The notes under the pieces were generated by a model. That model was given only the letters and a program-made list of their open reading frames with translations. It made no database searches and was not told the DNA's origin. Below are positions 19,177 through 35,764 of a stretch of DNA of 45,697 nt, piece after piece. The stretch lies in contig JAJFUT010000122.1 of assembly GCA_021372315.1 (NCBI GenBank), forward strand, positions 1-45,697. The letters run 5' to 3'. The stretch's first letter is position 1, and each line of letters begins with the position of its first letter. The stretch is from Methanobacteriota archaeon. GTDB lineage: Archaea; Thermoplasmatota; Thermoplasmata; Methanomassiliicoccales; UBA472. A program made the translations under genes and the position numbers.

Positions 19177-19216
19177 GGCTCGAAGTTTTATCTAACAATT
19201 GCCCGATGTAGTTCGG

Positions 19217-19651
19217 ATGACTGTCGGCCCATTATACTTCCGAGCGTTCATACACGCCACAGAGGACGAGGAGAATGTCCTTGTGGCGCTGAACAACGCG
19301 TCGGGCCTCGAGGAATACGAGAGGGACGTCACCGAAGGGCATCACGGCAACAAGATCGAGATCGTCGAAGGTGTTCTGAAGAAAAAGAAGGATATCATGA
19401 ATTTCTTCGCGGCCCTCTCGAAGGAGGACCTGCGATCGATGATCGATTCGATCGAACAACGAGTCGACGAAGATTGCCAGCTCTTTGCCAGGATAGACAA
19501 GCAAAAGGCGTATCTCGGCGAGATCGCGCTGACGAGGTCGGACGATGCGATATCAGTGCGCGGAAAGATCCAGACATATCCGAAGAACCGGGATGTCGCC
19601 GTGAAGAACATCACGGAACTCCTGGAAAAGCTAATTCAGGATAAGGATTAA
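19217..19651 (+). CDS. RNA-binding protein, predicted exosome-associated (DUF54/COG1325)
   Basis: 144 residues of a conserved archaeal family predicted to act with the exosome and found close to RNA-processing genes. Features: 'GPLYFRAFIHATEDEENVLVAL', 'VTEGHHGNKIEIVEG' and a C-terminal 'ARIDKQKAYLGEIAL' with 'ISVRGKIQTYPKNRD'. A TTG at 19199 is in frame. The ATG at 19217 is preferred because the TATA-like GTTTTATCTA (19184-19193) is about 28 nt upstream, giving a leaderless mRNA and the usual start of the family. It ends 28 nt before the tRNA-Leu gene and is the last core gene before the tRNA scar array. Function inferred from family only. Confidence 0.85.
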   Translation: MTVGPLYFRAFIHATEDEENVLVALNNASGLEEYERDVTEGHHGNKIEIVEGVLKKKKDIMNFFAALSKEDLRSMIDSIEQRVDEDCQLFARIDKQKAYLGEIALTRSDDAISVRGKIQTYPKNRDVAVKNITELLEKLIQDKD

Positions 19652-19679: not shown

Positions 19680-19763
19680 GCAGGGGTAGCCAAGCTTGGC
19701 CAACGGCGTAGGACTTAGGATCCTATCCCTAGCGGTCCAAGGGTTCAAATCCCTTCCCCTGCA
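19680..19763 (+). tRNA. tRNA-Leu (anticodon UAG)
   Basis: 84 nt. The acceptor stem GCAGGGG (19680-19686) pairs with CCCCTGC (19756-19762), with discriminator A19763. The anticodon stem is TAGGA/TCCTA (19709-19713/19721-19725), and the loop CTTAGGA carries anticodon TAG at 19716-19718. The long variable arm expected of leucine tRNA lies at 19726-19738. The T stem is AAGGG/CCCTT (19739-19743/19751-19755) with loop TTCAAAT. CCA is not encoded (CTT follows). A TTAATTA box is about 29 nt upstream. This intact gene is the attachment-site source for three degraded 3' copies downstream. Confidence 0.95.
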
Positions 19764-19849
19764 CTTCTAATTTTATCAATCCATCCATTGAACCATCTAA
19801 ATCATAGTCGTGTAACAGACCGATCGTTCATGATAAACAAATGAATATC

Positions 19850-20107
19850 TCAATCTTCTTGATACTGTTCCTTGTCCAGCTCAACAGATGCCGTGTCCTT
19901 ATGGTCACTGTCTTTCTTATGTTTCTTTCCACCTTCCACAGTACCCTCCCAGCCACGCATGAACCCTTCCTCAGAAGCTGTGATCTGGTCATCCTCGAGC
20001 ATCTCCTGTCTAGCGTCATCGTCGTAGATGCCCTCAGGCTCGTTATCTTCCTTATCTACAAATTTCTCAGAATCCGTTTCCGATTTATTTTGCCTTTTCT
20101 TTTTCAT
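19850..20107 (-). CDS. Small acidic hypothetical protein
   Basis: 85 residues, highly charged: a Lys/Arg-rich N-terminus (MKKKRQNKSE) and a strongly acidic middle with 'EGIYDDDARQEMLEDDQ' and 'ASEEGFMRGWE'. No membrane segment or cysteine. The pattern 'EDDxITxxEEGFMxG' resembles short conserved proteins seen next to many archaeal genes, but I cannot name a family. It lies antisense to the direction of the glycosylase gene in the first tRNA-bounded module. Upstream on its strand is an AT-rich TATA-like stretch (AATTAATATATTC, near 20140-20155). It could be a spurious ORF, but its biased, gene-like composition argues for a real gene. Confidence 0.55.
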   Translation of the reverse strand: MKKKRQNKSETDSEKFVDKEDNEPEGIYDDDARQEMLEDDQITASEEGFMRGWEGTVEGGKKHKKDSDHKDTASVELDKEQYQED

Positions 20108-20213
20108 ATCCTATTCCCATTGAAATTAGAGGAGAGATGGGAATATATTAATTTGAGCGACCTTCATTGTTAATTCAAATTGACGCGTCGATCGGGTAGT
20201 AAAGAGAGTCCTT

Positions 20214-21041
20214 GTGATCGAACTACCAGAGGCTCTGAACATTTCACGTCAGATTACTAAAACGATTGCCGGGAAGAGCATTGTCAGGGTGACGGCTGCG
20301 CAAACCCCTCATAAATTGGCCTGGTATTATGGAGACCTATCCAAATATTCTGAACTTCTTGATGGACATACGGTAGAAAAGGCCAATGCTTACGGTGGAC
20401 TCGTAGAGATCAAAGCTGGAAAGACGAATATCCTGTTCGGGGAAGGGATCTGTATAAGATTTCACGAGACCGGTGAACCACGGCCCTCTAAACACCAGTT
20501 TTTAGTGGAATTTGAGGACCGTTCCGCTCTCAGCGCCGTTGTTCAGATGTACAGCGGGGTCGGGGCTTTTTCAGACGGCGATCTAGACGATCGTTATTAT
20601 TTGATCGCCAAGGAAAAACCTTCTCCATTTTCCACGAAGTTCGACGATGACTATTTCCATTCTATCATCTCAGCACCGGAGGTTCAAAAACTAAGCCTGA
20701 AGGCATTGCTGGCCACTGAACAGAGGATCCCCGAACTGGGAAACGGTGTTTTACAGGATATTCTATTCAACTCTGGAATGCATCCTAAGAAAAAGGTCAA
20801 TACATTGAACGAAAAGGATGTTGGGACCCTATTCGAGAAGGTTAAGAGCACCCTTACTGACATGGCAGAACGGGGAGGTAGGGATACGGAATCGGATCTG
20901 TTTGGCTGTTCTGGAGGCTATCAGACCATTTTGAGCAAAAGAACAATAAACAAACCCTGCCCCATATGTGGAACATCCATCAAAAAAGAGGCATACCTGG
21001 GTGGGACAATCTACTCTTGCAAGAAATGTCAAAGAATCTGA
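20214..21041 (+). CDS. DNA glycosylase/AP lyase, Fpg/Nei (MutM/endonuclease VIII) family
   Basis: 275 residues. Base-excision repair enzymes of this family remove oxidised bases and nick the strand. The N-terminus reads IELPEA after the GTG start codon. The helix-two-turn-helix is 'GNGVLQDILFNSGMHPKKK' (about 178-196), and the C-terminal zinc finger is 'CPICGTS...CKKCQ' (about 249-272). The usual catalytic Pro1 is Ile here, while Glu2 and the LPE part are kept. NEIL3 works with Val in that place, so a different N-terminal amine may serve. The same MxELPEA-type start is common in a bacterial, mainly Firmicute, branch, which points to transfer. It is the main cargo of module 1 and ends about 90 nt before the first tRNA scar. 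Confidence 0.85.
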   Translation: MIELPEALNISRQITKTIAGKSIVRVTAAQTPHKLAWYYGDLSKYSELLDGHTVEKANAYGGLVEIKAGKTNILFGEGICIRFHETGEPRPSKHQFLVEFEDRSALSAVVQMYSGVGAFSDGDLDDRYYLIAKEKPSPFSTKFDDDYFHSIISAPEVQKLSLKALLATEQRIPELGNGVLQDILFNSGMHPKKKVNTLNEKDVGTLFEKVKSTLTDMAERGGRDTESDLFGCSGGYQTILSKRTINKPCPICGTSIKKEAYLGGTIYSCKKCQRI

Positions 21042-21134
21042 ACATGGATCGGATGAAAAAATGACCATTGTTGCTATATCGGGATGATCCTGTGTTCGGT
21101 GATGCATTGGTCGAGCATCATATCTAACAGGTAA

Positions 21135-21206
21135 CTTGGCCAACTGCGTAGGACTTAGGATCATATCCCTAGCGGTCCAAGGGTTCAAATCCCTTTCCCT
21201 GTACCA
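21135..21206 (+). repeat. tRNA-Leu 3' remnant, copy 2
   Basis: Aligns with 19695-19763 of the tRNA with four substitutions: G to T at the position of 19705, C to A at 19723, C to T at 19756 and C to T at 19762. T stem and T loop are unchanged. The sequence just upstream (CAGGTAA) may be a deleted form of the tRNA 5' end (CAGGGGTAGCCAAG). The discriminator is followed by CCA (21204-21206), which the intact gene lacks. It is no longer a functional tRNA because the acceptor 5' strand is gone. Confidence 0.9.
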
Positions 21207-21296
21207 ACATTTCTGTAGTGTTCTGAATGTGCATCCTAAAGGATATGATCTGGATGAAATGAGTGTATAAATAAATCCCCCGTTTATTTTGTTATC

Positions 21297-22091
21297 ATGA
21301 AAATGGATGCTAAAATCGTTGGGGAGAGATTGACTCGTATTTCACATCTGCCTGGAAGGGCGTTGTTTGTGTTCGGAAGTGAAAACGTGCGAAAAGAATC
21401 GGTTCAGATATCGAAGGTGGACCGATGCATGGCCAGGGCAGTCTATAAAATCTCTATGGATGGCCATGCGCCTCCGGTTTATTTCGGCCCAGATGCACGC
21501 ACAGGAATATGCCCCGGCGGTCAAGGGTGGTGTGGGATAGCTACCACTTCGCAAATGACCAAGTTCTTCATTTCCACCGGACGTCCCGACTTTATGAATG
21601 GCGCTGCAGAATACCTTAAGCCCGACCCTGCTGCAGCGGAAAGGTTCTTGGCCGCTCCTGGTAAGATCGCATTTCCTTATAAATATCTCAATATAGCTGG
21701 TTGGGACCAGCTCGAAGATGATCAAGATGTCCTTTCTTTGATTATGATCGGTAATGCTGAGTCAATAAGGAACCTTGGCGGTCTCATACAATATGTATTC
21801 GATGAGATGTTCAAATCCATAGTGATGCCAAGCGGTCCCTCCTGCGCATCAATGATAACCTATGCAGCTGGTCTATCTGAGAAGGCTCCACGGGATACTG
21901 CCTTCATTGGTCCTGTCGACCCCACTGGCAATGTCTGGTTTCCTCCAGACATGATGTCCATGGCCATACCATTCGATATGGCTAGAAAGATGGTGGAGAA
22001 CATCGAAGATTCGTTCCTGACGAAACGGGCAGAGGTCGCATTCCCTGTTAAAAGATTGGGCATTGGTGAAAAGGCCGAACACGATCAATGA
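21297..22091 (+). CDS. DUF169 family protein
   Basis: 264 residues of the DUF169/COG2043 family, found in methanogens and anaerobic bacteria, function unknown. Family features: 'GRALFVFGSENV', 'MARAVYKISMDG', the glycine/cysteine segment 'GICPGGQGWCGIATTSQ', and later 'MPSGPSCASMITYAAG' and 'FIGPVDPTGNVWFPPDMMSMAIPF'. Conserved Cys residues suggest metal or cofactor binding. No signal peptide or membrane helix. A TATA box (GTATAAATAAATC, 21265-21277) lies about 25 nt upstream, so the leader is very short. It is the only gene of module 2, and its stop codon ends one base before the next tRNA remnant. That tight junction suggests the gene and scar travelled or were trimmed together. Confidence 0.85.
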   Translation: MKMDAKIVGERLTRISHLPGRALFVFGSENVRKESVQISKVDRCMARAVYKISMDGHAPPVYFGPDARTGICPGGQGWCGIATTSQMTKFFISTGRPDFMNGAAEYLKPDPAAAERFLAAPGKIAFPYKYLNIAGWDQLEDDQDVLSLIMIGNAESIRNLGGLIQYVFDEMFKSIVMPSGPSCASMITYAAGLSEKAPRDTAFIGPVDPTGNVWFPPDMMSMAIPFDMARKMVENIEDSFLTKRAEVAFPVKRLGIGEKAEHDQ

Positions 22092-22158
22092 TTGGCCAAC
22101 TGCGGGGACTTAGGATCCTATCCATAGCGGCCTAAGGGTCAAATCCCTTCCCCTGCAC
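22092..22158 (+). repeat. tRNA-Leu 3' remnant, copy 3
   Basis: Starts directly after the DUF169 stop and matches the tRNA from TTGGCCAAC to the discriminator. It has two 1-nt deletions (anticodon stem and T loop) and a few substitutions. It shares with copy 2 the T at the position of 19705. The acceptor 3' strand CCCCTGC is intact. The three bases after the discriminator are CAA, one change from CCA. Confidence 0.88.
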
Positions 22159-22506
22159 AATCTTTTCAACATATCGGTCCATCGAAGAATGGTTTGTTTA
22201 TCTAATGCATATCGATGATCACAGACGATCACGCCCTCTTTCCAGAGGACATGGCATCACGAGCAGTGAAGGGGTCGATAATGCTGCCGGAGAAAGAAAA
22301 AAACTTGGTACCAGGTATAGGATTGATCACACCCCACCAGTCATTCCATGGGTATTTCAAGGCGAAGGGATCATTGCACTGAAATGATCAAGGCTCAAAG
22401 TCCGAATACCGTAGCCTATTTCAGGCGACATTAGTCATCGTGACGTATCGTATTGCTACGTTTATTGATCATACGATCGAACAAACGCAGGAAAAAGAAT
22501 AAAATT
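22159..22506. other. Gene-free stretch at the start of module 3
   Basis: No convincing gene. A 60-codon plus-strand frame (22205-22387) has no recognisable composition. Short inverted repeats occur (ACGTA...TACGT near 22443-22461). It may be residual sequence of a lost element. Confidence 0.4.
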
Positions 22507-22521
22507 AGGCCTGGAAGGCCT
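22507..22521 (-). terminator. Hairpin terminator of the flavin split-barrel gene
   Basis: AGGCC-TGGAA-GGCCT overlaps the first base of the stop codon. On the minus strand it is followed by AATTTTATTCTTTTTC, a U-rich tail. Confidence 0.5.
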
Positions 22522-22931
22522 CAAACTATCTTTCTTCCAGAATCCCAGGTCGGGCTCTCGTTGTATACCTCTTCAGCTTTCAAAAGCCACACACCTTTCA
22601 GGTCCACCTTCATTGCCTTGAAGGTCTCTTTCATCTTTTCGAACATTGGACCAGCGGTCACGTGGTCCTTGACGCTGCACCGGACCTCATAAGACTCCGG
22701 GCCCTTGCTTACAAGTATTGAAGCGTGGGAGCGGTCCTTCTTTGAATGCTCGAGGTTTTCGCTTGTCGCTTTCATGAATACTTCGCCAACGAAGATAGTC
22801 TCGGGGTCTATGGTGCCTGCACCACCCACGTTGATCAGATGCACATCGCCCTTGGCGCTCTTGGTCCCTAGAATTTTGCTCGATGAGCGATCGTTCAATA
22901 GATTGAATACTCCATCTGGTAGCTTTGCCAT
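22521..22931 (-). CDS. Pyridoxamine 5'-phosphate oxidase-like FMN-binding split-barrel protein
   Basis: 136 residues of the flavin reductase/PPOX split-barrel fold, which binds FMN or F420 and usually reduces or oxidises small molecules. The family features are 'LPDGVFNLLND', 'SKILGTKSAKGDVHLINVGGAG', 'ETIFVGEVFMKATSENLE' and 'YEVRCSVKDHVTAGPMFEKM'. The substrate cannot be told. The ATG at 22931 is chosen: it follows GGTGGA, while an ATG at 22946 would lie at or before the start site set by the TATA box (TTTATATATT, near 22963-22972). It is divergent from the winged-helix gene, with only 72 nt between the starts, so the regulator may control it. Confidence 0.72.
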   Translation of the reverse strand: MAKLPDGVFNLLNDRSSSKILGTKSAKGDVHLINVGGAGTIDPETIFVGEVFMKATSENLEHSKKDRSHASILVSKGPESYEVRCSVKDHVTAGPMFEKMKETFKAMKVDLKGVWLLKAEEVYNESPTWDSGRKIV

Positions 22932-22979
22932 ATTTCCACCATCCATAAATGTGTCAAAACAATATATAAATATTGGTAA

Positions 22980-22997
22980 TGAATATTTTTCTATTCA
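22980..22997. promoter_or_regulatory. Inverted repeat in the divergent promoter
   Basis: TGAATA-TTTTTC-TATTCA, perfect 6-bp arms, lies between the flavin-protein and winged-helix genes and overlaps the probable TATA element of the latter. It is a candidate site for the adjacent regulator. Its AT-rich composition means chance is possible. Confidence 0.35.
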
Positions 22998-23003
22998 TCC
23001 GCC

Positions 23004-23765
23004 ATGAACGATCAAGAAGTCCTATCAGAAATAAGGGCGCTTAAAAGCGATCTGAACATTTTCAGCGACCAAATGGTCCGCCTGCGATACGTGGACCTCA
23101 AATCCGTTTTCTTGGAACAGATGAGGATGGTGATCGGGGATGAGGGGAAGCGCTCGTTCTTAGATGATACGAGCATCATGAACAACAGTTCCGCATGTGA
23201 TCTCAAGGGGAGATGCATTCAGAAACTTGAAGAGACCGCCAACATAGCAACCAACCTGTTCATGAAAGATGACCTGGCAGGTGCAATGAACATATTGGAC
23301 GAGGCTGAGGTCCTGATCAATGGTGACATTTCTAATTGCCAGGACAAGGCATGTTCTGAAACAGCGGAGGAGATCCTTCATCGTTTAAAAGTCATTCTGC
23401 AGATTTATGGGGACCTGGCCATTAGGTTCGGCACCGATGGTGAACTGAAGATGGGGCAGAACAGGGATTCCTGTCAGTACACTGCCGATGAGATGCAATC
23501 GGTTTTGAATCCCCTTGCCAACGCGTGGCGCATCAAGGTTCTAACTGTTTTGAGGCGTGGGGACCATAGCCTTACGGAACTAGGTCGAGCATTAGAATTG
23601 CAGACTGGGCACCTTCAATTTCACTTGCGGGCGCTTATGGAGGCTGGCTTCATAGAGATGGATCGCCGCAGACATCGCTACTCAATGACAGAAAGAGGGG
23701 CACTGGCCCTGAGCTGTGCTGAAGATATGGTATCGAAACTGGGTATGCCGAATTCTACAATTTAG
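23004..23765 (+). CDS. Winged-helix (ArsR-like) transcriptional regulator
   Basis: 253 residues. The N-terminal 150 are helical with heptad-like character and several cysteines (CDLKGRC, NCQDKAC) that could sense metals or redox state. The C-terminal winged helix (about 165-245) reads 'LANAWRIKVLTVLRRGDHSLTELGRALELQTGHLQFHLRALMEAGFI', with the wing 'RRHRYSMTERG'. This is the ArsR/HTH_20 pattern of archaeal regulators. It is divergent from the flavin split-barrel gene and probably regulates it. The ATG lies about 20 nt after GAATATTTTT, suggesting a leaderless mRNA. Its stop codon TAG (23763-23765) is the first part of the tRNA-derived TAGGATCC, so the tRNA fragment terminates the protein. The native C-terminus may therefore have been altered by an integration event. 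Confidence 0.8.
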   Translation: MNDQEVLSEIRALKSDLNIFSDQMVRLRYVDLKSVFLEQMRMVIGDEGKRSFLDDTSIMNNSSACDLKGRCIQKLEETANIATNLFMKDDLAGAMNILDEAEVLINGDISNCQDKACSETAEEILHRLKVILQIYGDLAIRFGTDGELKMGQNRDSCQYTADEMQSVLNPLANAWRIKVLTVLRRGDHSLTELGRALELQTGHLQFHLRALMEAGFIEMDRRRHRYSMTERGALALSCAEDMVSKLGMPNSTI

Positions 23766-23813
23766 GATCCCATTCTCAGCGGTCCAACGGTTCAGATCCC
23801 CTCCCCTGAACCA
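23763..23813 (+). repeat. tRNA-Leu 3' remnant, copy 4 (oldest)
   Basis: Matches the tRNA from TAGGATCC in the anticodon arm to the discriminator over 48 nt with 8 substitutions. The discriminator is followed by CCA. It is the most diverged and shortest copy. It overlaps the stop of the winged-helix gene. Confidence 0.82.
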
Positions 23814-23946: not shown

Positions 23947-24594
23947 GTGGATTTTCCCAGATGCGATAGATGTGGAGACGCGGGATGCAAGATCGGAGAA
24001 CCAGGAAAGTTCAAGAACTGCCCGACCAATGTTTCGGAGATCAAGCGGGAAGAGATAATCGAGCGCTACCATGATCCAGAGACGCAGGCCTTGATGCAAA
24101 CGGCCGCCAAGGTCGAGAGGGGCACCCTCCAGCCGGTGAATGGGGTCCTGACGCCTATCAGGCCTCGCATATCCGAGATAATGGCTTTCGCAGATGAGAT
24201 GGGATGGAAGAAGATCGGGGTGGCATTCTGCCTGGCCGCCCGGGACGAGGGCATCAAGCTCACCAAGGTCCTTGAGGCAAGGGGCTTCGAGGTGTGTTCT
24301 GTCATCTGCCGCAATTTCTCCATGAAGAAAGGAGAGTTCGACATCCCCAAGGAAGATTGTATCAAGAGCGAGAACGAGTCGGTGTGCAACCCTGTCTATC
24401 AGGCCGAGCTTCTGAACGAGGCGGGGACCCAATTGAACATCGTCCTGGGCCTTTGCGTAGGTCATGACATGCTGTTCACCAAGAACTCTAAGGCATATGT
24501 GACAACCCTCTCTGTGAAGGACCGTATGACCGGCAACAACACCATCGCGCCGCTATATTCGGGATTCTTTACCGAGATCCTGAAGAAATATTGA
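23947..24594 (+). CDS. DUF1847 family metal-binding protein
   Basis: 215 residues. The start (CDRCGDAGCKIG) is a Cys-rich site, consistent with the predicted metal-binding nature of DUF1847. Further cysteines are in 'FCLAARDEG', 'VCSVICRNFS', 'KEDCI', 'SVCNPVYQAELLNE' and 'GLCVGHDMLFTKNS', all characteristic of the family, which is frequent in anaerobes and methanogens and has no known reaction. No membrane helices. The GTG at 23947 starts the conserved region and follows GGTGA. Single gene downstream of the last tRNA scar; a hairpin terminator follows the stop directly. GC content is like the core, so it may be original host sequence just past the array. Confidence 0.85.
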   Translation: MDFPRCDRCGDAGCKIGEPGKFKNCPTNVSEIKREEIIERYHDPETQALMQTAAKVERGTLQPVNGVLTPIRPRISEIMAFADEMGWKKIGVAFCLAARDEGIKLTKVLEARGFEVCSVICRNFSMKKGEFDIPKEDCIKSENESVCNPVYQAELLNEAGTQLNIVLGLCVGHDMLFTKNSKAYVTTLSVKDRMTGNNTIAPLYSGFFTEILKKY

Positions 24595-27536: not shown

Positions 27537-30500
27537 TTACTTCTTCTGGGGTTTCTTTACTACCAGGCTGTAAATAACGAACAGTGCTGCTCCAACAGCT
27601 GCTACGATTATCACGATTATTGCCCATAGTGGGAATCCCGAGGAGGACGAATCATCTTGACCATCGGTGGTCGTGAAGGTCCAGGTATACTCACTGGCCA
27701 TTGCATTGCCTGCCAGGTCCTTTACCTCGATCGTGATCGTCGCAGTATATGTCGTTCCCTCTTCCAGATCGACCGTGGGTGTGAACACCGCAGTGACTCC
27801 AGAGTAGGTCACTGTACCTGCGATAACCGTTGTTCCTTGCATCAACGAGAATGTCGCCGCAGTTATTGTTAGCGGATTCATTGCCTCGCTGAAGGTGGCG
27901 GATACCGAGCTGTTGCCCGATACATCTGTACCGGAGCTGGATGGAAGGGTGGAGATCACCGTTGGGGCTACTGCATCTACAGCTGCACCAGTGGTGAAGG
28001 TCCAAACATAGCTGCTCGCGAGCACATTACCTGCGAGGTCCTTTATTCCAGTCGTTATCGTTACAGTGTATACTGTGCTTGCCGATAGAGCGCTGGTCGG
28101 TGTGAACACTGCGGTGACTCCAGAGTAGGTCACTGTGCCTGCAACGGCGGTCGCTCCGTGCTTCAACGTGAACGAGACCGTAGTTATTGTCAGCGGGTTC
28201 ATCGCCTCGCTGAAGGTAACAGATACCGCACTGTTCAGAGCGATACCGGTGGCAGAACTGACTGGAACGGTGGATATCACCGTGGGGGAGATCTCATCCT
28301 CAGCCGCACCGGTGGTGAAGCTCCAGGTATAGTTGCTGGCCAACGCATTGCCTGCCAGGTCCTTTGCTACGGTGGTTATCGTCGCAGTATAGAGCGTGCT
28401 TGCCGATAGAGCGCTGGTCGGTGTGAACACCGCGGTGACTCCAGAGTAGGTCACTGTGCCTGCAACGGCGGTCGCTCCCTGCTTCAACGTGAATGAGACC
28501 GTAGTTATTGACAGCGGGTACATCGCCTCGCTGAAGGTGGCGGATATCGCCTTGTTCAGAGCGATGCTGGTCGCACCGTTGGTAGGATCGACCGAGATCA
28601 CGGTTGGCGCGATCGTGTCTGGTGTGACACCGGTGGTGAAGATACAAGTATAGTTGCTGGCAAACGCATTGCCTGCGAGGTCCTTTGCTCCGGTCGTTAT
28701 AGTCGCAGTGTATACTGTGCTGGCCGATAGAGCGCTTGTCGGTGTGAACACCGCGATGACTCCAGAGTAGGTCACGGTTCCCGCGACCGCCATTGCGCCT
28801 TGCTTCAAGGTGAAGGTCGTCGTGGTGATCTTCAAGGGGTTCATCGCCTCGCTGAAGGTGGCGGATATCGCACTGTTCAGAGCGATGCTGGTCGCACCGT
28901 TGGTAGGATCGACCGAGATCACGGTTGGCGCGATCGTGTCTGGTGTGACACCGGTGGTGAAGCTCCAAGTATAGTTGCTGGCCAACGCATTGCCTGCGAG
29001 GTCCTCGGCCCCGATCGTTATCGTTGCGGTATATACCGAGCTGCCCGACAAATCGTTCGTCGGTGTGAACACCGCGGTGATACCAGAGTAGGTCACGGTT
29101 CCCGCGACCGCCATTGCGCCTTGCTTCAAGGTGAAGGTCGTCGTGGTGATCTTCAAGGGGTTCATCGCCTCGCTGAAGGTGGCGGATATCGCACTGTTGA
29201 GTATTACGCCTGTTTCAGAAATTGCAGGGACGGTGGATATCACAGTGGGTGCGGTGGTGTCTGGAGCAGCACCAGTGGTGAAGCTCCAAGTATAGTTGCT
29301 GGCCAACGCATTGCCTGCGAGGTCCTTTGCTCCGGTCGTTATAGTCGCAATATATACCGTGCTAGCTGCGAGGTTGCCGATCGGTGTGAAAACCGTGGTG
29401 ACACCAGAGTATGTCACTATGCCTGAAACTGCCGTCGACCCATGCTTCAACGTGAATGTCGTTATGCTTATGCTAACGGGGTCCATCGGCTCGTTGAAAG
29501 TTGCAGATAACGCTATGTTGAGATCTACGTTCGTTGCAGCATTGGTCGGATAGACCGAGCTGACCGTCGGAGGTGTTGCATCTAGGGCAACGCCTGTGGT
29601 GAAGCTCCATGTATAGTTGCTTGCCAACTCATTGCCTGCGAGGTCCTTTGCTCCGGTCGTTATAGTCGCAGTGTATACCGTGCTAGCTATGAGATCGGCG
29701 TCAGGTGTAAACACCGCGGTAACACCAGAGTATGTCACAGTCCCTGCAACGGACGTTGATCCATGTTTCAACGTAAATGTCGTTGTGGTTATGTTTGTAG
29801 GGGCCATCGGCTCGTTGAAAGTCGCGGACACTGCGCTGTTGACTGCTACATCGGTGTCAGAATTGGCTGGAATCGTGGAGATCACCGTCGGTGCGACAAT
29901 GTCTGTGGGCATTAAGACAGAGGATGCGTCAAGAGTGACCGCGGTTTGCGCTAGTGCTCTTCCGATCACCGTTGCACCCGTCTCGATCACGATCCCGGTT
30001 TGATCCAGGATAGTTCCCTGGACAACGGCCGTCGTTCCGATCGTCGTTTGTCCAGCTACGATCCAGAAGATATTGCTTGGCAATGCTGCACCAGCCAATA
30101 TGATCTGTACGGATGAGCTGACCTCAAGATTTCCAGCTATTATGAAGATCCATACGTCGTCGGCGCTACCGGTGAGAGTAATGGATGTCGTTATTGTTAC
30201 ACCACTGCTCCATTTATACACACCAGCCGTGAGTGTCAATCCACTGAGGGTTCCAGCTCCAAGCTCAGTATAACCTGGCGCGGCTCCTGCTGCGACATTG
30301 TATGCCGTTTCCATGTCGCTTATGGTCGTGGTCATCTTTGTTGGAGTTGGGGGAGCATAGTCGGACGCGTAGACCTTACCATCGATTATTGAAGACGTGG
30401 AAAATTCATTTGAGGAATCCATTATCAAGCCGAACCCAGTGATGTAAGTGAATGAAGCTGGGCTAATTCCGATATCTCCAACGATCCCGGTTGTCCCGGT

Positions 30501-31016
30501 GGTCGATATTCCCGTTTTTGCGAGAATTACGAAGTCGCCGGCCGTACCAAGAACGACCGCTGACGCCGAAGAGGTGGATGTCGTGAAATTCCAAGTGTAA
30601 TCACTCGCCAATGGATTGCCTGCGAGGTCCATCACTCCAGTCGTGATCGTTACAGTATAGATAGTGCCAGCGAGAAGATAATTCGTTGGTGTGAAGGTCG
30701 CTGTGCTGTTGACGGTGGTCACGCTGCCCGGTACCTTTGTCAATCCTTGTGTCAGGTTGAACGTGGAATTGGTGATGGTCGCTGCGTCCATAGCCTCACT
30801 GAAGGTTGCGATTATCGGCTTGTTGAGTGAAACGCCCATAGCAGCATCGACCGGATCAATGGAGCTCACCGTTGGCGGCGTTGTGTCATCGGCGGCCATG
30901 ACAAAACTCGACATCGTCGTCATGACCATCAGCGCTGCGATCATCACCACCAACATTGCGCTGAGTCTTTTTTCAAAATATTGCTTGTTTCCGAATTGTC
31001 TTGAACGATTGAACAT
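27537..31016 (-). CDS. Surface-anchored ice-binding-like (DUF3494) adhesin with Big_5/SbsA Ig-like repeats
   Basis: 1159 residues. An N-terminal signal segment (about 18-41, ending 'FVMA') is followed by one Ig-like Big_5 domain (about 44-150), a DUF3494 ice-binding-type domain (about 152-372), seven more Big_5 units of about 107 residues (about 373-1122) and a C-terminal membrane helix (about 1126-1150) ending 'KKPQKK'. The DUF3494 features are 'GTAGDFVILAKTGIS', 'GIVGDIGISP', 'DMETAYNVAAG', 'GLTLTAGVYKWSSG', 'DVWIFIIAGNL' and 'GRALAQTAVTLDASSV'. Each Ig unit has 'APTVIS..P', 'ATFSEAM', 'VTYSGVTAVFTP' and 'DLAGNxLASNYTW'. Known DUF3494 proteins bind ice or act in adhesion. A GGGAGA site precedes the ATG. 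Probably a long stalked surface adhesin; ice activity is not shown. Confidence 0.9.
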   Translation of the reverse strand: MFNRSRQFGNKQYFEKRLSAMLVVMIAALMVMTTMSSFVMAADDTTPPTVSSIDPVDAAMGVSLNKPIIATFSEAMDAATITNSTFNLTQGLTKVPGSVTTVNSTATFTPTNYLLAGTIYTVTITTGVMDLAGNPLASDYTWNFTTSTSSASAVVLGTAGDFVILAKTGISTTGTTGIVGDIGISPASFTYITGFGLIMDSSNEFSTSSIIDGKVYASDYAPPTPTKMTTTISDMETAYNVAAGAAPGYTELGAGTLSGLTLTAGVYKWSSGVTITTSITLTGSADDVWIFIIAGNLEVSSSVQIILAGAALPSNIFWIVAGQTTIGTTAVVQGTILDQTGIVIETGATVIGRALAQTAVTLDASSVLMPTDIVAPTVISTIPANSDTDVAVNSAVSATFNEPMAPTNITTTTFTLKHGSTSVAGTVTYSGVTAVFTPDADLIASTVYTATITTGAKDLAGNELASNYTWSFTTGVALDATPPTVSSVYPTNAATNVDLNIALSATFNEPMDPVSISITTFTLKHGSTAVSGIVTYSGVTTVFTPIGNLAASTVYIATITTGAKDLAGNALASNYTWSFTTGAAPDTTAPTVISTVPAISETGVILNSAISATFSEAMNPLKITTTTFTLKQGAMAVAGTVTYSGITAVFTPTNDLSGSSVYTATITIGAEDLAGNALASNYTWSFTTGVTPDTIAPTVISVDPTNGATSIALNSAISATFSEAMNPLKITTTTFTLKQGAMAVAGTVTYSGVIAVFTPTSALSASTVYTATITTGAKDLAGNAFASNYTCIFTTGVTPDTIAPTVISVDPTNGATSIALNKAISATFSEAMYPLSITTVSFTLKQGATAVAGTVTYSGVTAVFTPTSALSASTLYTATITTVAKDLAGNALASNYTWSFTTGAAEDEISPTVISTVPVSSATGIALNSAVSVTFSEAMNPLTITTVSFTLKHGATAVAGTVTYSGVTAVFTPTSALSASTVYTVTITTGIKDLAGNVLASSYVWTFTTGAAVDAVAPTVISTLPSSSGTDVSGNSSVSATFSEAMNPLTITAATFSLMQGTTVIAGTVTYSGVTAVFTPTVDLEEGTTYTATITIEVKDLAGNAMASEYTWTFTTTDGQDDSSSSGFPLWAIIVIIVAAVGAALFVIYSLVVKKPQKK
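27663..29890 (-). repeat. Tandem 321-bp-class repeats within the surface protein gene
   Basis: Seven consecutive units of roughly 107 codons. Some are almost identical in DNA: an 80-nt block around 28561-28640 recurs exactly or nearly so at 28881-28961, a spacing of 321 nt. This suggests recent unit duplication or gene conversion. Confidence 0.8.
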
Positions 31017-34999: not shown

Positions 35000-35764
35000 T
35001 CATCTTGCGGCCTTGGTTTTGAAGGATTCCGATATCTTTTTCATCTCGAGGTCCTGGATCTCCTCGACGGTCATCTTACCGCCGCTCTTCATGATCTTCA
35101 CGACCTCGCTCGAGGGATTGGCGAACACGAATAGGTTGACGTTCTTGACCGTCCCGTCCTTGAACTTGTACTTGTAGATAAGAGGGAGCTTGGCGCCCTG
35201 CATGAACTCGCTTATGCTTAGCTCCTGGTCGATGTCCTGCCCTTCGAATATGTCCAGGCACATCTCCAGGGCGTACTTGCCGAAGGCCAGGACGTTCAGT
35301 TCCGACCTTCCGAGAAGGTTGAGCTCCTCGATGAAGTGCTCTCTGCACCTCGTCGCCGACTTCCTCCATTCCTTGTTGATGTCCCTGTCGCCCCTCTCCG
35401 GCACGCACTTGAGGGCGTGGGTCCAATAGACCCTGCCGCCCTTCGGGTCGAACCTCCCGAATATTTGCAGGACCTTGGAAAGAGGATTGGCCTTCCTCAC
35501 ATCATCGATAGGTGTTCCGTCAGTGCACAGCATGGTCAACCTTTGCTCCGCCCCATTCCCTTGCTCGGAGCGCAGCCAGTAGCCAGGTTCCTGAGAGAGT
35601 ATGACGAAATCGACCGACGCCAGGGACCCCTTCCTTTGGAAGACGACGGGCATCTTGTTGGCGTTCCTCGGACAACCGGAGCACTGACCGTGCACCTTGG
35701 CTCGAAACCCTTCCCAGCCCGTCTCCTTTTCGCCGGCCATGGACGCATATGACCGTTTTTCCAT
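35000..35764 (-). CDS. Uracil-DNA glycosylase superfamily protein, probable [4Fe-4S] type
   Basis: 254 residues. It has the cysteine layout of family-4/5 UDGs: C28 and C31 ('CSGCPRN'), then 'WTHALKCVPERGD' and 'SATRCREHFIEELNLLG'. The first active-site motif reads 'LSQEPGYW' instead of the usual GEAPG, and the C-terminal HPS motif is 'ANPSSEV', with Asn for His. It may therefore have a different base specificity or have lost activity. UDGs excise uracil from DNA. A stretch with 'EFMQGAKLPLIYKYKFKDG' has no known counterpart. The ATG at 35764 lacks a clear ribosome site. The gene is single, between the CxxC protein and the DUF998 pseudogene. Confidence 0.78.
   Translation of the reverse strand: MEKRSYASMAGEKETGWEGFRAKVHGQCSGCPRNANKMPVVFQRKGSLASVDFVILSQEPGYWLRSEQGNGAEQRLTMLCTDGTPIDDVRKANPLSKVLQIFGRFDPKGGRVYWTHALKCVPERGDRDINKEWRKSATRCREHFIEELNLLGRSELNVLAFGKYALEMCLDIFEGQDIDQELSISEFMQGAKLPLIYKYKFKDGTVKNVNLFVFANPSSEVVKIMKSGGKMTVEEIQDLEMKKISESFKTKAAR

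Follow-up and report, generated by a model that had tools for sequence, protein, structure and literature searches.

Displaced tRNA-Leu(UAG) 3′ ends bound small integrase-free gene units at an apparent integration hotspot of the Methanomassiliicoccales

How does a chromosome accumulate accessory genes at a single tRNA gene when none of the acquired segments encodes an integrase? This question is raised by a 45,697-nt stretch of archaeal DNA (hereafter the window), which corresponds to contig C82 of G000, a genome of 1.75 Mb assembled into 127 contigs. In the window, an intact tRNA-Leu(UAG) gene is followed by three partial copies of its own 3′ part, here called scars 1 to 3, which divide a small accessory island into modules 1 to 3. 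Based on a comparison with about 25 related loci, we favor, with a probability of roughly 60%, the reading that small non-autonomous units bounded by tRNA ends form an array here and are mobilized in trans by a tyrosine integrase.

The tRNA-Leu(UAG) gene, its scars and the genes between them

A first-pass annotation of the window had described an intact tRNA with three same-strand copies of its 3′ part, which differ from it by 3, 4 and 8 positions and become shorter with distance. Searches and a base-by-base alignment bear out this description. In a genome-wide search, scar 1 matched the tRNA with 94% identity over 70 nt (21135-21204, E 2.7e-25) and scar 2 with 90% (22092-22158, E 1.2e-18), and a scan of the locus recovered scar 3 with 84-85% identity over about 50 nt (23762-23811, E 4e-12). 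In the 3′ core, scar 1 departs from the tRNA at 3 positions, scar 2 at 4 (one of them a deletion) and scar 3 at 8. The corresponding bit scores of 94, 77 and 59 compare with 28 bits for the best antisense or shuffled control over all loci, and no fourth copy above background was present within the 45.7-kb window. In the complete genome of the congener G002, scans covering about 12 kb downstream of almost every tRNA detected no 3′ scar. A chance match or a general repeat as the source of the scars was ruled out by the genome-wide and 12-kb downstream scans.

The modules are as tiny as the annotation had claimed, namely 1.37, 0.89 and 1.60 kb with one or two genes each, and their GC content of 44-47% lies below the 53.0% of the window. 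Genes and scars are joined tightly. The stop codon of the DUF169 gene (22089-22091) directly abuts scar 2, and the TAG stop codon of the ArsR-like gene e (23763-23765) is the copy of the anticodon triplet inside scar 3. As homologues of gene e end at nearly the same residue, the scar 3 junction coincides with the natural end of this gene.

The genes of all three units are absent or patchy among congeners, and their nearest relatives sit in other genera or families. Among 147 genomes of the order, only four contain the Fpg type encoded in module 1, each time near the anchor gene and tRNA-Leu(UAG); outside the order, it was found in Dehalococcoidia, Bathyarchaeota and Borrarchaeota. In a phylogenetic tree, the four copies of the order form one clade (support 86/92), from which a single entry into the order can be deduced. 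Several independent acquisitions are not supported by this clade, inside which the branching is unresolved. The DUF169 gene of module 2 is missing from the congeners G001 and G002, and its nearest relative (69% identity) resides in G032, a member of another family; a tRNA-Ala scar beside this G032 copy was sought and not found. Genes d and e of module 3 recur in identical divergent layout in G005, which belongs to another genus, with 88% and 74% identity, respectively. Relative to G005, the ratio of nonsynonymous to synonymous substitution rates (dN/dS) is 0.10 for gene d and 0.21 for gene e; for Fpg and DUF169, dS is saturated and no such ratio was derived. At 2.3 kb from the d/e pair of G005, a weak tRNA-Leu-like scar (84%, 32 bits) was observed (locus L364, contig C39, 2263-2293).

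The tRNA gene itself bears marks of replacement. The tRNA-Leu(UAG) of the window shares 98% identity with that of G048, a member of another family, compared to only 89-91% with its counterparts in congeneric genomes. The intact tRNA of G048 carries an AAGGG T-arm unlike its congeners, and its displaced scar keeps their CGCAC...ACCA end. From the variable arm onward, scar 1 resembles the tRNA-Leu(CAG) of the same genome. Taken together, these similarities make an exchange between tRNA-Leu isoacceptors likely, be it by integration or by gene conversion. A different alteration of the target was seen in two families: in G014 (contig C140, L362), G042 (C32, L360) and G043 (C14, L361), the T-loop of tRNA-Leu(UAG) is interrupted at position 70 by a similar stretch of about 31-32 nt with the shared sequence CCCACTGGCTC. 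This stretch is probably an archaeal tRNA intron.

Empty, occupied and reordered sites in related genomes

In most relatives examined, a right-hand block of core genes is conserved along with the anchor gene and tRNA-Leu(UAG), but what lies between the two sides is different in every genome. The distance between the tRNA and a gene of the uracil-DNA-glycosylase (UDG) superfamily illustrates this variation. It amounts to 0.03-0.3 kb in G050, G011 and G009, to 1.3-5.8 kb in several others and to 15 kb in the window. The layout of a tRNA followed by scars was also found in G001, G003, G010, G032, G048 and G050, and at tRNA-Leu(CAG) in G047 and G048. The 15 modules listed measure 0.7-5.2 kb and contain mostly one or two genes; their scars start at variable tRNA positions between 16 and 69. 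Judged by these comparisons, tRNA-Leu(UAG) shows itself as a recurrent integration hotspot of the order.

Two pairs of genomes provide the empty and the filled state of one site. In G003, a 2.9-kb two-gene insert lies between the tRNA and a 3′ copy, and G016 represents the empty site: from tRNA position 31 into the right flank, its sequence is 93.7% identical over 975 nt to the G003 3′ copy and the flank of this copy, and the left flanks share 92.9% identity. Likewise, G047 is the empty site for a single-gene unit of G050, the UDG gene. Together with 28 nt of its flank, the G050 scar aligns to the tRNA and flank of G047 with 83.7% identity over 86 nt, and the next 1.5 kb are collinear. The search for relatives with fewer modules, which the annotation had recommended, thus yielded empty and filled sites in these two pairs; for the modules of the window itself, none of the relatives compared offered a clean one. 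Serial integration at the tRNA 3′ end, the central claim of the annotation, is well supported by such empty and occupied sites.

These data leave almost no room for a vertical island, in which the genes would be ancestral neighbors and the scars a general repeat or local duplications of the tRNA, with no movement of genes. The anchor gene, tRNA-Leu(UAG) and the right-hand block are indeed conserved across the order, as expected of such an island, but empty sites, patchy cargo, the different content in every relative and the scar-free other tRNAs of G002 contradict it. Two patterns that the annotation had named as fatal to serial integration are absent: close relatives differ from the window in order and content, and the scars do not belong to a genome-wide repeat.

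The annotation had further read the order of modules as a stratigraphy with the newest unit next to the tRNA. This reading holds in genus g2, where the loci are nested: G009 has only tRNA, UDG and core genes, G016 has one additional gene at the tRNA and G003 has the 2.9-kb unit at the tRNA. It also holds in genus g14, where G048 and G032 carry their oldest, heavily eroded scar about 150 nt from the native UDG gene, as expected if UDG was once the neighbor of the tRNA. As a strict clock, it fails in the genus of the window, since the unit of gene a and Fpg is proximal to the tRNA in the window and distal in G001. Further rearrangements were observed. The UDG gene adjoins the tRNA in G050 but lies 5.3-5.8 kb away in its congeners G032, G047 and G048, with the remaining shared genes of G050 and G047 in the same order. 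Two further genes are in swapped order in G048 compared to G047 and G050, and the homology block begins 4 nt after a G048 scar. Hence, units seem to have been lost, moved and reordered as well as added. One candidate loss, that of thiE-thiM from the window genome by recombination between tRNA and scar, was considered, as both the tRNA-Leu(UAG) of G000 and the scar at +7090 in G001 lack CCA, and is unproven; the flanking similarity comes from gene a itself.

Further partial copies were noted elsewhere. In G009 (contig C3, around 208547; L167), two tRNA-Leu-like scars 1.2 kb apart flank an ion-channel-like gene away from the intact tRNA-Leu genes. The intact tRNA-Leu(UAG) of G032 is preceded, at a distance of 2 kb, by a 5′ fragment of tRNA-Leu (positions 1-41; C7:57003-57043), which lies between this tRNA and Fpg. 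It is a mirror-image remnant, as expected of an integrase that uses the 5′ half.

Probable movement of units without a resident integrase

No recombinase was present among the open reading frames of the window modules, which the annotation had already described as free of an integrase, and none of the array contigs gave a match to PF00589 or a fragment of it at E values up to 0.1, pseudogenes included and stops read through. In the mechanism that we propose, each unit would bring along a copy of a tRNA-Leu 3′ end, which would recombine site-specifically with the 3′ half of tRNA-Leu(UAG) upon entry. With the new copy, the tRNA would be complete again and the previous 3′ end would be displaced downstream as a scar, so that repeated entries would produce the three modules. 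If scars stay recognizable as secondary sites, units could also be lost again, change to the position next to the tRNA or exchange places. The recombinase would most likely be a tyrosine integrase encoded outside the array, either by a full element or by a tRNA-Leu-linked gene elsewhere in the genome. We infer both the nature and source of this enzyme and the movement of units as circles.

Potential sources exist in these genomes, in which integrase genes at other tRNA-Leu genes end next to the CCA of the tRNA. In the window genome itself, an integrase gene at tRNA-Leu(GAG) and a matching scar on another contig (Table 1) suggest a separate integrase-bearing element split by assembly, and G002 has an integrase at tRNA-Leu(UAA). 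In G008, a complete tRNA-Leu(GAG) abutted by an integrase lies on contig C9 beside the conserved anchor gene of the UAG locus. A UAG 3′ scar is found next to UDG on a different contig (C79), and no intact tRNA-Leu(UAG) was found in this genome. This constellation may stem from an integration with a change of the anticodon half, from a rearrangement between two tRNA-Leu genes or from an assembly fault. The tRNA-Leu-linked integrases are the best candidates for the enzyme in trans, and they may act on UAG ends.

These same integrases also fit a competing scenario, in which the modules are remnants of larger elements such as viruses, plasmids or islands that integrated autonomously by means of their own integrase and were then eroded, with loss of the integrase and most other genes by deletion. 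Loss of the integrase after integration is the usual explanation for integrase-less archaeal elements (PMC8371274), full-size tRNA-Leu-linked integrases occur in the order, including the one in G008 beside the same anchor gene, and scars 2 and 3 have decayed. Nevertheless, no integrase fragment was detected in any array, even with stops read through. The youngest unit, the first module after the tRNA in G001 (L040), already lacks an integrase, with an exact 19-nt scar, a length of 5.2 kb and a GC content of 38.7%. Moreover, units repeatedly measure 0.7-3 kb, the G003 unit is a clean two-gene insert relative to the empty G016 site, and a native gene that has relocated by itself, as UDG has in G050, is not a product of erosion. 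We regard erosion as a possible but unlikely origin of the arrays. The youngest G001 unit, a recent foreign unit, encodes a MoxR-type ATPase, a second protein of 532 amino acids and a UDG-like gene, and is possibly a defense-type MoxR system.

A dedicated integrase might also be unnecessary if RadA-type homologous recombination between tRNA-Leu copies of 50-85 nt inserts, deletes and reorders segments from related archaea. The differing lengths and start points of the scars, the lack of shared arms at unit ends and the apparent exchange of tRNA 3′ halves between isoacceptors, as in scar 1 and tRNA-Leu(CAG), would be accounted for in this way. However, the start of many scars falls in the anticodon stem (26-39) or the T-loop (56-69), where integrase attachment (att) sites usually have their limits (PMC8371274). 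Moreover, homologous recombination would hardly be expected with near-exact scars as short as 17-21 nt, and no scars were seen at the other tRNAs of G002. We regard homologous recombination as improbable, more so than erosion.

Mobilization in trans remains the reading that we prefer, and several observations weigh against it. The events counted are few and most relatives are metagenome-assembled genomes. With no clean empty site among the relatives compared, the integration of the window modules is deduced from scars, cargo and parallel cases. G002 has different genes after tRNA-Leu(UAG) and yet no scar, indicating that turnover is in some cases traceless. The branching of the Fpg tree is too poorly resolved to follow movement within the order. 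A common arm motif beyond the tRNA copy was sought at the unit ends and not found, so that the ends give no positive sign of a single integrase family. Finally, neither a free circle nor a carrier element was found; scans of viral contigs for patterns of the tRNA-Leu end and for the G008 integrase were empty.

Table 1. Features of the tRNA-Leu(UAG) locus in the window and of the putative tRNA-Leu(GAG) integrase element elsewhere in the same genome (G000).
Feature	Position	Strand	Remarks
Left anchor gene, conserved	19199..19651	+	syntenic with tRNA-Leu(UAG) in most relatives examined
Intact tRNA-Leu(UAG), integration target	19680..19764	+	no encoded CCA at 3′ end; most orthologues have CCA
Module 1	19765..21134	.	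1370 bp, GC 44.2%
Gene a, 85-aa acidic protein	19850..20107	-	module 1; orthologue also near Fpg in G001
Fpg/Nei-type DNA glycosylase	20214..21041	+	module 1; H2TH domain
Scar 1, displaced tRNA 3′ part	21135..21206	+	tRNA positions 16-85 plus CA
Module 2	21205..22091	.	887 bp, GC 47.0%; one gene (DUF169), ends exactly at scar 2
DUF169 (COG2043) gene	21297..22091	+	module 2
Scar 2, displaced tRNA 3′ part	22092..22158	+	tRNA positions 17-85, two 1-nt deletions
Module 3	22159..23761	.	1603 bp, GC 47.1%; divergent two-gene unit
Gene d, 141 aa, no Pfam family	22521..22946	-	module 3
Gene e, ArsR-type winged-helix regulator	23004..23765	+	module 3
Scar 3, displaced tRNA 3′ part	23762..23813	+	tRNA positions 36-85 plus CA; most diverged
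Right-hand conserved gene, DUF1847	23947..24594	+	91% identity in G001 and G002
UDG-superfamily gene	35003..35764	-	15 kb from the tRNA
Integrase gene	C62:205-774		ends at tRNA-Leu(GAG) 3′ end
tRNA-Leu(GAG) scar	C98:22940-22967		about 28 nt, matching, near contig end

The extra DNA between DUF1847 and UDG in the window also contains, on the minus strand, a gene for a 1159-aa protein with many near-identical Ig-like repeats (27537-31016).

Known systems and the biology of the host

The locus shares some but not all features of a classical tRNA-targeted island. The window has an intact tRNA and a same-strand 3′ fragment at the far end, and uninterrupted sites are available in the pairs G016/G003 and G047/G050, whereas the integrase that such an island encodes itself is missing. 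Archaeal elements integrated at tRNA genes use tyrosine recombinases and tRNA 3′ halves, restore the tRNA, occur in tandem at one locus and in some cases lack an integrase (PMC8371274, PMC6563490). Integrated elements of thaumarchaea range from 2.6 to 140 kb with a median of 16.8 kb (PMC6563490), and most units described here are smaller than that minimum. Archaeal integrated elements devoid of an integrase are also mostly larger than the present units.

We judge two systems to be the closest precedents. In Dehalococcoides, tandem islands at ssrA are bounded by repeated 3′ ends of one RNA gene; 15 of the 31 islands have no integration module, and 16 carry the serine integrase DsiB, which targets the tmRNA gene (PMC3146451). 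Here too, 3′ ends of one RNA gene bound tandem accessory units, but the target is tRNA-Leu and no array unit carries an integration module. The second precedent is accretion at tRNA 3′ ends by cis-mobilizable elements (CIMEs). This is the accepted term for att-bounded units without an integrase, described mainly in bacteria as decayed derivatives of integrative and conjugative or integrative and mobilizable elements. Like CIMEs, which form tandem stacks at a single tRNA and are presumably mobilized by the integrase of another element, the present units are att-flanked and devoid of an integrase, and of transfer genes as far as judged from module gene content. They differ in that they often comprise one gene, reside in an archaeal host, show no helper element in the arrays and appear to relocate singly. 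In the bacterium Prochlorococcus, tycheposons are likewise cargo units associated with tRNA genes, and islands there contain partial tRNA copies; unlike the present units, they come with a tyrosine recombinase and carry larger cargo.

A comparison to integrons, which occur in archaea too (PMC9668308), goes further. As in integrons and in clusters of attC sites lacking an integron integrase (CALINs), short, mostly one-gene units, each followed by a recombination site, are inserted at the proximal end of a fixed docking site and reordered, possibly by an integrase in trans. Judged by their alignment, the unit boundaries are copies of a tRNA 3′ end and probably differ in this from the attC sites of integrons, and there is no integrase gene beside the array; intI is by definition absent from CALINs as well. 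It is a tentative proposal that an integron-like system of the Methanomassiliicoccales docks at tRNA-Leu genes as its fixed site. Its units, of one or two genes each and with the tRNA 3′ half as both recombination site and replacement end, might be taken up, stacked, moved and reordered by a tyrosine integrase that is specific for tRNA-Leu and encoded elsewhere, and the tRNA gene itself might be partly exchanged horizontally.

If trans mobilization is true, a tRNA gene can fill the role of an integron attI. The arrays also document that incoming DNA can take the place of the 3′ half in an essential tRNA gene. They bear on the origin of integrase-less archaeal islands, for which mobilization in trans and erosion are the competing explanations. 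For these hard-to-culture methanogens, the arrays would represent a simple and recognizable route of gene acquisition at a fixed chromosomal address, including the acquisition of genes shared with Dehalococcoidia.

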